Source: Nitrososphaerota archaeon
Lineage (GTDB): Archaea; Thermoproteota; Nitrososphaeria; Conexivisphaerales; UBA164
Length of the DNA: 38,908 nucleotides
Assembly (NCBI GenBank): GCA_023381255.1
Contig: JAMCTX010000007.1
Span: 1-38,908, forward strand
Direction: 5' to 3'
Shown here: one piece after another, positions 73 to 8,967 of the stretch
Layout of the letters: the number at the start of each line of letters is the position of its first letter
Position numbering within the stretch: the stretch's first letter is position 1
Made by a program: the position numbers and the translations under genes
Notes under the pieces: generated by a model
What the model was told of the DNA's origin: nothing
The model's database searches: none
Seen by the model: the letters and a program-made list of their open reading frames with translations, nothing else

Positions 73-420
73 ATGGACATGGAAAGTTCGATAAACGAAT
101 TGGAAGGGTTGAAATTTATGTTACAGGAATACAGGGAAGCCTTAAGGCTAGCACTTAATAATACCGATTCAAATTTAGTTGAAGAAGTTGGGCTTATTAT
201 AAACCAATGCACCGAAACTATGAACATTATAGATAAAAGGAAAAATGAAGAAGATGACCTAAAAAGAATAAAGAGTTTTATTGAATCTATTGTTGAAAGG
301 TTCAATAAAATATCAGAAATTTTATCTGAAGATCATGAATCTTCAGAAGAATATGACTTAAGCTTTCTGAGTGATTTCCTTTACTATGCCGGCCGCAACG
401 GTTCTTCCAGAATCTCTTAA
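73..420 (+). CDS. Hypothetical helical acidic protein, 115 aa
   Basis: I do not recognise this family. The predicted protein is rich in Glu, Lys, Leu and Ile with heptad-like spacing, so it is probably alpha-helical or coiled-coil. There is no signal peptide or membrane segment. A TATA-like TTTTAAG at about 47-53 lies roughly 24 nt before the ATG, which fits a leaderless transcript. The last 63 nt overlap the 3' end of EF-1alpha on the other strand, so the final ~20 residues are antisense to EF-1alpha and probably carry no conserved function. It could be a lineage-specific gene or a chance reading frame. Confidence 0.55.
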
Positions 421-1679
421 TGCAAATCTTCCAAGCTCTGGAAATTCCTTGTATGTTTCAATACACAGCGGTGTAAGCGGCGGCTTTAATCTAACCAGTG
501 CGGCGTCTCCCGTCTTTATTGTCTTTGGATGGTCCTCCACCACCTGCCCTGTTCTTGGGTCTATTTTGCTTATTATCTCTGATATAGAAGTGGCTATTTG
601 AGCAGTATGTGCGTGAAGAACTGGTGTGTATCCTGCTGCTATGGCAGTTGGATGGAATACTACAAATATCTGAGCAATAAACTCCTTTGATACAGTTGGC
701 GGATTATCTGGATGCCCCAATACCATGCCTCTTTTTACATCCTGTTTGGCTATTCCCCTGACATTAAACCCGATGTTGTCTCCTGGCTCGGCCTTTTCAA
801 CTCCAGTGTGGTGCGTTTCTATGCTCTTCACTTCCCCCTTTAAAGCTGGGGGCATTACAATTATAGTTTCACCTACTTTCATAACGCCAGTTACCACTCT
901 GCCCACCGGCACAGTGCCTACCCCAGTAATTGAGTAAACATCCTGTATGGGTATTCTGAGCGGCTTGTCTGTTGGCTTCGGCGGTACCTGTAAATTATCA
1001 AGCGCTTCAAGCAAAGTCGGGCCCTTGTACCATGTTATGTTGGTTGATTTTTCGCTCAGGTTATCTCCCGTCCAGCCTGAAACCGGTATTATTGGCAACG
1101 TATCAACTTTATAGCCTACTAACTTTAATAGGTCACTGGCCATATTTTTAACCTCATCAAATCTTTTTTGACTGTATGGTGGCTGTGTAGCATCCATTTT
1201 ATTGATCAAGACTATTAACTGATTAACGCCCAAAGTCTTAAGCAGGAATGCGTGCTCCCTTGCTTGACCGCCTTCGGATAAGGCAGTTTCTGTTTCCCCT
1301 TCCTTGGCTGAAACAACAAGAATTGCTGCGTCTGCCTGGCTAGCCCCTGTTATCATGTTCTTTACAAAATCCCTGTGGCCTGGGGCATCAATTAAAGTGA
1401 AAAAGTACTTTTTGGTTTCAAATTTTTGGAAAGCTAGGTGAAACTATAATTGTAATGCCCTATGGTGACACCCCTTTCCCTTTCCTCTTTCAACCTGTCT
1501 AAAACCCAAGCATACTTAAATGAATCGCCAACTCCCAGTTTTTCAGATTCTTTTGCAAATTCTTCTACTTCCCTAGGATCTATTACGCCAAGATTAAATA
1601 GAAAATGCCCTAAAGTAGTTGATTTGCCGTTATCTACGTGCCCCACCACGACTAAGTTCAGGTGAGTTTTTTGTGACAT
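358..1679 (-). CDS. tuf: Translation elongation factor EF-1alpha (aEF1A), reading frame interrupted
   Basis: GTPase that delivers aminoacyl-tRNA to the ribosome. The N-terminal part (1434-1679) has the P-loop GHVDNGKST and reads to ERERGVTI. The C-terminal part (358 to about 1434) has DAPGH (G3), NKMD (G4), VSGW, and complete domains 2 and 3 ending KEITQKA. The two parts are in different frames, and the first meets a TAG at 1434-1436. Removing the 20 nt at 1440-1459 restores [17 protein letters not shown], which is the expected archaeal sequence. Everything else looks intact and under selection. An essential gene should not be dead, so the break is an intron-like element, recoding, or an assembly error. 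The usual archaeal partner S10 is not adjacent; it lies at 38.4 kb. Confidence 0.93.
1440..1459 (-). other. 20-nt extra segment in the EF-1alpha switch I region
   Basis: In mRNA sense the gene reads ...ACC ATA G, then these 20 nt, then AC CTA GCT TTC. Exact removal joins ATA GAC CTA GCT (I-D-L-A). The segment is flanked by similar sequences TCACCATAG and TCACCTAG. GGUG upstream can pair with the second CACC and GGAAAG with CUUUCC, which gives part of a bulge-helix-bulge shape. Cutting at those bulges, however, would also delete the conserved Thr-Ile of switch I. I could not fit a canonical bulge-helix-bulge at the 20-nt boundaries. Confidence 0.55.
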
Positions 1680-5674: not shown

Positions 5675-6001
5675 ATGAGCCTAGTAGAATTTGATGCATT
5701 CCAAAAGCTGGATTTGAGGGTGGGTAATATTAAGGAGGTTTACCCGATAGAAGGTTCAAGAAAGCTGCTGAAGGTGATTATTGATCTTGGTGATTCACAA
5801 AAGCAGGCTATAGCTGGCATAAGTAAATACTATAACGCGCAGGACCTTGTTGGCAAAAGGGTAATTGTGGTGACCAACCTTGTTCCAAAGCCCATTATGG
5901 GATACGTTTCTGAAGTTATGCTTCTAGCCGCCTTTAATGAAGCGAACCTCTCTTTGCTCACTACTGATAAGGATATGCCCCCCGGCACTAAAATATCATA
6001 A
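5675..6001 (+). CDS. Methionyl-tRNA synthetase beta-like tRNA-binding protein
   Basis: A free-standing OB-fold tRNA-binding domain (EMAP-II / MetG C-terminal type), 108 aa. Signatures are FDAFQKLDLRVGNIKEVYPIEGSRKLLKVIIDLG, then KQAIAGISKYY, and LVPKPIMGYVSEVMLLAA. This matches the usual length of archaeal MetRS beta subunits, which bind tRNA and assist a separate catalytic subunit. The transcript appears leaderless, with a TATA-like element about 28 nt before the ATG. The catalytic metG is not in this window. Confidence 0.9.
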   Translation: MSLVEFDAFQKLDLRVGNIKEVYPIEGSRKLLKVIIDLGDSQKQAIAGISKYYNAQDLVGKRVIVVTNLVPKPIMGYVSEVMLLAAFNEANLSLLTTDKDMPPGTKIS

Positions 6002-6519: not shown

Positions 6520-6756
6520 CTATAATTGTTCCTGCAATATTGAATCGTCTCCAGATTCAATTATGTATCTAGCTACGTCTGCAGCCCACACTCCAGTATC
6601 CCTATTTTTTATGATGCTATGCAGATATTCTTCAAAACTTATATTAAATGCGTTTTTCCAAACATTATAGTTTTCCACAAGGTTTTTTGCCGCAGCGGCA
6701 TGTTTAAAACAGAGCTTACCGCTATTTGCATAAAATCCGCATATTACGCAGCTCAT
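6520..6756 (-). CDS. Conserved small zinc-binding-type protein, 78 aa
   Basis: The N-terminus has Cys3-x2-Cys6 and Cys16-x2-His19 (CVICGFY...CFKH), a likely zinc knuckle. A helical part follows, ending RYIIESGDDSILQEQL. The start ATG overlaps the stop of topoisomerase I, so it is co-translated with it. The function is unknown; position suggests a partner of topA or of tRNA/ribosome genes in this cluster. Confidence 0.75.
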   Translation of the reverse strand: MSCVICGFYANSGKLCFKHAAAAKNLVENYNVWKNAFNISFEEYLHSIIKNRDTGVWAADVARYIIESGDDSILQEQL

Positions 6757-8708
6757 TTCTTTTTACCTGGACAAGCTGGATTTGGACAAAACACCCATCT
6801 CCCTCGTCGCATAAGGGGCCAACCGCAGGATTTACATGCGGTCTTTGTTGGGGTTATTAGCCCCCTTGCCGGCATGGGGGCAGAGGCGCCGCATTTTTCA
6901 CATCTTAAAAATCTTTTTCCATTAACTGATCTATGGAAGATTAAATCCCCAACGCCGCAAACAGGGCACTTTCCGAAATTGGCTATTTTTTCTCCCCTCA
7001 AATACAATTTAAAGTATTCAGAAAGTTCTTCACCTTCTCTGCGCTTCTGAATTTCTTCAAACAGCAAATTGATTGATTGCAACATTACTTTCTCAGGATC
7101 CATTGAACCGTCTTCTATTTTTTCTAAACTGATTTCGAGGTTGCGAGTCATCTCAACAGTAATTATTGGAGAATTTATAAAGAACCTAGTGACGCCATAA
7201 CCTAAATTTGTAAGCTGCATCCTCTGGCCGTCTACATAATTCCTCTTATAAAGCGTTCTTATTATTTCACTTCTGGTGGCCTTGGTGCCTATATTGTTTT
7301 TTTCCATCCATTCTAGTAATGAAGATGGATTGTATCTGGGCGGGGGCTTGGTATACTTGCTTGATATATTCACCTTGCTTATTATAGCTTTATCCCCTTC
7401 TTTGGTATCAGGCAGTTTCACTTCGCTTAATTCCTTAAAATGATAGACATTGACCCACCCTCGTGATATAATCTCCAGCCCTTCTGCAGTAAAGCGGACT
7501 CCTTCAACATTTACCCTGAGCATTTTTTTCCTAGCAACAACATCGTCCATAAAGCACGATATAAATCGCCTTGCAACAAGGTCATAGACGCTCCTTTCGT
7601 CCTGAGTTACGACCCTGCCTTCGCCTGTTGGATATATTGCAGGATGAGCCGAATCAGTCATCCTTCCTTCTGCTGGAATGCCCCTTCTTGTACTTCCTGC
7701 CTCCCTGTAACTAACCGCAAGCTTACCAAGAATTTTCTTATAATTTATACTTGCAGGCAATTTCTGGGATGACGTACGGGGATATGATATTGCAGCTTTT
7801 AGGTAAAGGCTTTCAAGAATAGAAAGCGTCTTCCATGGGCTCATTTTAAGTATTCTGTACGCTTCCTTCTGCACCTCAGCAAGATTAAAAGGTGGAGGAG
7901 GCGGTATCCTTTCAACATAACTTTTTGCCAATTCAACTGAACCGCTTTTTCCCTCAAGCTTTTTTATATTCACAGAATCGTTTTGAGAATATACTGTGGG
8001 ACCAGCCATGCTAATTTCCTCTCCATTGATGTTCACCTGCGCCACGGTCTGCCAGTATGGCCTGGGAACAAATGCATTTATATCAAACTCCCTTCTGTAA
8101 AGCTCAAGCAACGTCGGTCCCTGAACCCTGCCGGTGCTAAGGTTTGCATATCTTATGTGCCTTACTTCATCGCTCACCAGCCTTGAAAGATTTATTCCCC
8201 ATAGATAGTCTATATAGTGCCTTGTCCTCCCCGCTTCAGCCATATTCCATTTCTCCCGTTTAATCAGGGAACCAAAGCTCTGGCGCAGGTCTTCGCTGGT
8301 AAGCGTTGAAAATTTTGCCCTGTAAAGTTTTTTATCAATACTGCCACAGTATTTGACAATGTTATAGCCTATGGTTTCACCTTCAATATCGTAATCGCAG
8401 GCAATTATAATCTGCTCCGCATCCCTGAGCAGCCTCGTTGCAAGTTCTGCTATGCCTCCTGTATCTAAATATTTTTTATTTATGCTGCTCAGGGGTTCCC
8501 ACTCCAGGTCTGTTACGGGGTAAATGCGCCTGTTTTTTACATCACTATTTAACCCAAAAATATGTCCCCTTGCTGGAAGAATTGTTGCATCTTTATCTTC
8601 AAACCTTATCCTGTAAATCTTAACTCCACTTACATTAAATGCTTTATAATCACTATCCAATGCAATGGCAATTCTTTCTGCTGCATCCCTCTTTTCTGCT
8701 ATAATCAA
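6753..8708 (-). CDS. topA: DNA topoisomerase I (type IA, archaeal)
   Basis: Relaxes negative supercoils by cutting one strand. The protein shows a TOPRIM start (LIIAEKRDAAERIA), the metal motif ACDYDIEGETIGYN, LSTGRVQGPTL, the active-site Tyr in AAISYPRTSSQ, and two C-terminal zinc ribbons (CPVC...CEKC and CKSC...CPNPAC). There is no helicase domain, so it is not reverse gyrase. The open frame runs upstream through the tRNA-Val gene to 8816. The real start must lie after the tRNA, and the TTG at 8706-8708, 8 nt past the tRNA 3' end, gives (M)IIAEKRDAAERIA and 651 aa. Confidence 0.93.
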   Translation of the reverse strand: MIIAEKRDAAERIAIALDSDYKAFNVSGVKIYRIRFEDKDATILPARGHIFGLNSDVKNRRIYPVTDLEWEPLSSINKKYLDTGGIAELATRLLRDAEQIIIACDYDIEGETIGYNIVKYCGSIDKKLYRAKFSTLTSEDLRQSFGSLIKREKWNMAEAGRTRHYIDYLWGINLSRLVSDEVRHIRYANLSTGRVQGPTLLELYRREFDINAFVPRPYWQTVAQVNINGEEISMAGPTVYSQNDSVNIKKLEGKSGSVELAKSYVERIPPPPPFNLAEVQKEAYRILKMSPWKTLSILESLYLKAAISYPRTSSQKLPASINYKKILGKLAVSYREAGSTRRGIPAEGRMTDSAHPAIYPTGEGRVVTQDERSVYDLVARRFISCFMDDVVARKKMLRVNVEGVRFTAEGLEIISRGWVNVYHFKELSEVKLPDTKEGDKAIISKVNISSKYTKPPPRYNPSSLLEWMEKNNIGTKATRSEIIRTLYKRNYVDGQRMQLTNLGYGVTRFFINSPIITVEMTRNLEISLEKIEDGSMDPEKVMLQSINLLFEEIQKRREGEELSEYFKLYLRGEKIANFGKCPVCGVGDLIFHRSVNGKRFLRCEKCGASAPMPARGLITPTKTACKSCGWPLMRRGRWVFCPNPACPGKKK

Positions 8709-8716
8709 TACAGAAG

Positions 8717-8791
8717 TGGGCCGGGCCGGATTTGAACCGGCGACCCCCGCCATGTCAAGGCGATGTGCTGACCAAGCTACACCACCGGCCC
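8717..8791 (-). tRNA. tRNA-Val (anticodon GAC), no intron
   Basis: The acceptor stem GGGCCGG pairs with CCGGCCC, followed by discriminator A at 8717. The anticodon loop is UUGACAU with stem UCGCC/GGCGG, and the T arm contains GGUUCAAAUCC. CCA is not encoded (the next bases are CTT). The gene lies 8 nt after the L40e stop and 8 nt before the topA start, so it seems to be cut out of a shared transcript. Confidence 0.96.
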
Positions 8792-8799
8792 TATAGGAT

Positions 8800-8967
8800 T
8801 TACTTCTTTGCACCAAGTTCCCTGTTCTTTAATCTAAGGGCATGACTACCACATTTTCTGCACTTTACTGCGTCAATGGGGTTCTTGGCTCCACACTTCA
8901 TGCATATTTTGAACATCAATCGCCTTTGAACGGCTATCTGACGCTTAACTGGGTCTGCTATTGGCAT
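8800..8967 (-). CDS. rpl40e: Ribosomal protein L40e (eL40), 55 aa
   Basis: Small zinc-ribbon ribosomal protein. Reading from the ATG at 8967 it begins [19 protein letters not shown], has the Cys pairs C22-x2-C25 and C36-x2-C39 ([18 protein letters not shown]), and ends [11 protein letters not shown]. Length and sequence match L40e. A TATA box at 8990-8997 is 23-30 nt upstream, so this is the head of the L40e-tRNA-Val-topA transcript. Confidence 0.96.

Follow-up and report, generated by a model that had tools for sequence, protein, structure and literature searches.

The window analysed here, a stretch of 38,908 nt comprising all of contig C7 in a genome draft of 25 contigs and 85% completeness, carries on its minus strand an EF-1alpha gene with a broken reading frame (Table 1). 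Reading from 1679 to 358, 20 additional nucleotides at 1440-1459 separate two intact parts that lie in different frames, the minus-strand context being ...GTC ACC ATA G followed by the insert, GGCATTACAATTATAGTTTC, and then by AC CTA GCT TTC..., with the frame of the C-terminal part open directly after the insert. When these 20 nucleotides are left out, the restored frame reads GVTIDLAFQKF, identical to that of relatives. A first-pass annotation of this DNA, made from its letters, had described both the break and its repair by deletion, and both descriptions hold; as possible explanations it had offered a short intron, recoding or an error.

Table 1. Features of the EF-1alpha locus and of the adjacent contig end (window positions)
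Feature	Position	Strand	Remarks
EF-1alpha (aEF1A/TuF-type elongation factor)	358..1679	minus	two frames, single copy in assembly
20-nt insert, coding GGCATTACAATTATAGTTTC	1440..1459	minus	inverted copy of 851-870; in no aligned relative
Recipient arm of 26-nt perfect inverted repeat	1435..1460	+	outside insert: TAGGT (5 nt) + C (1 nt)
Donor arm GGGCATTACAATTATAGTTTCACCTA	850..875	+	codes VGETIIVMP on minus strand; collinear with relatives
Terminal fold-back tail of C7	1..29	+	exact inverted copy of 164-192
Donor of C7 contig-end tail	164..192	+	

EF-1alpha was sought in 40 relatives, the closest of which are MAGs of the Conexivisphaerales and Nitrososphaeria. One full-length open copy is present in 35 of them and a contig-edge fragment in one further genome, while four incomplete genomes yielded none; the gene is single-copy in 36/36 relatives where it was found. 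The first-pass annotation had also proposed alignment to relatives and a search for a second EF-1alpha. The alignments revealed the 20 nt in none of the relatives aligned, and in the same-genus MAG DRTY3_bin.13 (Nitrososphaeria), in which EF-1alpha is intact and 95% identical at the protein level, the alignment runs through the insert site with a clean 20-nt gap. The search recovered no second EF-1alpha in the 85%-complete assembly, the remaining matches being distant GTPases that score below 50 bits. Relative to the 95%-identical same-genus gene, codon changes in the N-terminal part number 20 synonymous and 4 non-synonymous, against 110 and 18, respectively, in the C-terminal part. The codon changes indicate that purifying selection acts on both halves, and their mostly synonymous nature implies that function was lost only very recently, if at all.

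Taken as its reverse complement, the insert is identical to 851-870, a stretch within domain 2 of EF-1alpha itself that lies 589 bases off in the downstream direction; this inverted copy was missed by the earlier annotation. With flanking microhomology the inverted arms extend over 850-875 and 1435-1460, are complementary at 26/26 positions and stand 559 nt apart. The chance of encountering such 26-nt arms within 1 kb is about 2e-9; within the genome they are confined to these two sites, no further genomic match to the insert exists at up to two mismatches, and dinucleotide shuffles of the window yielded no such inverted pair. At the priming joint the microhomology consists of ACCTA (5 nt) and then CTTTC past a 1-nt bulge, so that the TAGGT preceding the insert also adjoins the donor and an additional GAAAG pairs beyond the bulge, and at the opposite joint a single C is held in common with the donor. 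The collinearity of 851-870 with the relative means that the donor is original and 1440-1459 the copy. Furthermore, the insert agrees with the donor of its own genome rather than with the diverged donor of the relative, and neither insert nor donor displays later substitutions. The near-repeat TCACC(A)TAG, to which attention had been drawn at the two ends of the insert, is indeed there, but it is a by-product of the inverted copy, with TTTCACCTA belonging to the donor. The inverted arms are the signature of one polymerase fold-back rather than that of an element for splicing or bypassing.

This origin bears directly on the proposal of a very short archaeal mRNA intron, cut out by the tRNA splicing endonuclease. 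Removal of the 20 nt would give exactly GVTIDLAFQKF, and archaeal pre-mRNA introns are known in cbf5 (PMC2738675), where they likewise form a non-coding stretch within a conserved archaeal gene. Unlike the cbf5 introns, the EF-1alpha insert is devoid of a bulge-helix-bulge, is unconserved, no relative carrying it, and comes from the gene's own reverse strand; a splicing element would have no reason to reproduce domain 2 of its host gene in this way. In a bulge-helix-bulge scan of six cut positions, the central 4-bp helix attained 0-3 pairs and the outer helix 0-2/5, and at the frame-restoring cut that gives GVTIDLAF there were 0/4 central pairs. An intron is, on these grounds, next to inconceivable, and the same can be said of ribosomal bypassing or frameshifting across the 20 nt. 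A -1 slip at the Phe codon (TTC to TTT) ahead of the TAG stop would enter the downstream frame, but switch I would then contain seven residues too many, while bypassing of the T4 gene 60 type is opposed by the lack of matched take-off and landing codons, the two ATA codons differing in frame with respect to the C-terminal part. The local mRNA fold that had been put forward for testing around the insert proved no more stable than that of shuffled sequence (z = -0.2). The absence of matched codons, of a distinctive fold and of the insert from any relative, together with at least ten other inverted copies in the assembly (see below), thus tells against recoding. That the insert is truly genomic, with EF-1alpha still made by removal or skipping of an inverted self-copy in the mRNA, is on the whole very improbable.

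Similar inverted copies are found elsewhere in this assembly. The genome was rebuilt from its stretches and then scanned for inverted copies, and at least ten were detected besides the EF-1alpha insert, mostly at contig ends. At 7/50 contig ends (on C1, C4, C7, C12, C15, C21 and C25), as well as at the right-hand border of the C2 N-gap, the sequence is an exact inverted copy, 16-29 nt long, of sequence no more than 3 kb off. By comparison, 1/3778 random internal positions reached an inverted copy of at least 13 nt (Fisher p = 3e-13). The tails are up to 29 nt long, a length of which part may be natural microhomology. The tail of the window itself is not collinear with the relative, the alignment beginning only at about base 30-40. 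The end of C4 is a perfect 46-nt palindrome, and Illumina adapter remnants are present at the end of C15 (12 nt, CTCTTCCGATCT) and at the start of C20 (23 nt, CCTACACGACGCTCTTCCGATCT). Contig overlaps of exactly 127 nt mark this as a K=127 short-read graph assembly, in which two 10-N gaps represent scaffold joins. As it is the assembler and not the cell that determines where contigs end, the tails stem from chimeric reads, and we infer a common origin for them and the EF-1alpha insert.

The 20 nt are therefore very probably a fold-back (snap-back) chimera that arose in library preparation or sequencing and was kept in the contig, rather than a part of the organism's EF-1alpha; of the explanations initially offered, it is the error that gains support from the inverted self-copy and the assembly-wide signature. 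A 3' end finishing in ...GGAAAGCTAGGT would anneal by TAGGT to the TACCTACTTTC region of the same DNA near 875, with the GAAAG pairing across the 1-nt bulge adding to this annealing, and would then copy about 20 nt backwards, from 870 to 851. The resulting chimeric read might have been joined to the genuine sequence where coverage was thin, near the contig end, the second joint of the insert presumably being closed by the assembler. This explanation is favored by the exact inverted identity, the microhomology at both joints, the absence from relatives and the contig-end signature, and also by the fact that a fixed frameshift is unlikely in an essential single-copy gene under purifying selection. 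Comparable products have been described: in MDA, >85% of rearrangements are inverted chimeras in which priming relied on 2-21 nt of complementarity (PMC1855051, Lasken and Stockwell 2007), and inverted-repeat chimeric reads occur in sonicated and enzymatic libraries (PMC10908179, Chen et al. 2024). The EF-1alpha insert resembles such MDA and end-repair fold-back chimeras in being a nearby inverted copy with microhomology at the priming joint, formed intramolecularly over a short distance. It differs from most of them, which have one junction, in lying inside a contig with two joins, and the workflow used for this sample may be a different one. Counting against an artefact are this internal position, 1.4 kb from the contig end, the 85% completeness of the assembly, which would allow for a second EF-1alpha copy, and the cleanness of the insertion, which neither lost nor duplicated a base where the copying returned, a result that an artefact need not give and explains less easily.

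It is in this last respect that the main rival, a real template-switch mutation, has its strength. Under it, the nascent strand would have folded back on itself during replication, templated 20 nt from its own inverted sequence and resumed at the place it had left, which broke EF-1alpha in this lineage; the cells would be kept alive by a second copy among the 15% of the genome absent from the assembly, or by the population being mixed. A return to precisely the original position is more easily explained in this manner, and the microhomology at the two joints of this clean insertion, 5 nt (10 nt with the bulge) and 1 nt, fits the mechanism of template switching between inverted repeats (PMC8604942). 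The event is also akin to in vivo quasi-palindrome mutations in being a short, inverted, templated insertion with microhomology, but the classic events have close arms, whereas 559 nt separate the arms in EF-1alpha, and contig ends, on which no mutation process can act, bear the signature as well. Such a mutation would inactivate an essential gene that is single-copy in every relative where it was found. The insert is, moreover, missing from the same-genus relative, no later substitutions have accrued in it or its donor, and an equal signature is frequent at contig ends and at an assembly gap, which are non-biological positions. We consider a template switch unlikely, and a fold-back chimera of the library or sequencing process remains the preferred reading.

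Comparison with relatives also identified three more internal inverted patches in this assembly, of the same kind as the insert and in favor of an artefact; that they replace sequence without a change of length is a property that a template switch would account for. At C24:5628-5652, about 25 nt have been replaced by a copy of 5828-5852, with the length unchanged, creating a TGA stop late in an ORF fragment that belongs to a conserved ATPase gene; the counterpart in the relative is of equal length and has an open frame. At C19:7234-7254, 21 nt have been replaced in frame, the same-genus relative having unrelated sequence. Close to where a hemL-like gene ends, at C1:70767-70789, the 23-nt arm is unlike the sequence of the relative, in an alignment that is gapped and weaker. 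Two further candidates were left out as probably natural, namely C22:44586, where 35-nt terminal inverted repeats flank an IS-like transposase, and C10:55065, the flanks of which are imperfectly matched. Control assemblies likewise favor the artefact, with tailed ends numbering 0/42 in G001, of the same genus, and 1/33 in G009. G001 does contain some natural-looking inverted pairs, but in 114 kb of alignment no inverted patch on its side emerged from 269 mismatch clusters, the four matches on the side of the present assembly (G000) being loci included deliberately. This result argues against a template switch, and inverted patches as a lineage-wide mutation process were rejected for the same reason. 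The single tail in G009, a 34-nt fold-back at the end of its C1, belongs to another MAG of the family, and suggests that this type of artefact is not confined to the present assembly.

The 20-nt insert is thus almost certainly not a real feature, and it would matter as biology only if confirmed by reads. Its wider interest is as a caution, in that short fold-back chimeras inside MAG contigs can break essential genes and mimic micro-introns or recoding sites. A quick screen would compare an insert with the reverse complement of its neighborhood and look for an equal signature at the contig ends.

Elsewhere in the window, an Rfam scan detected only a tRNA-Val gene, at 8716-8791. The mechanically called start of a topoisomerase-like ORF (6753-8816, minus strand) crosses this gene, and the overlap in the 8716-8816 region suggests that the true start of the topoisomerase-like gene lies downstream.
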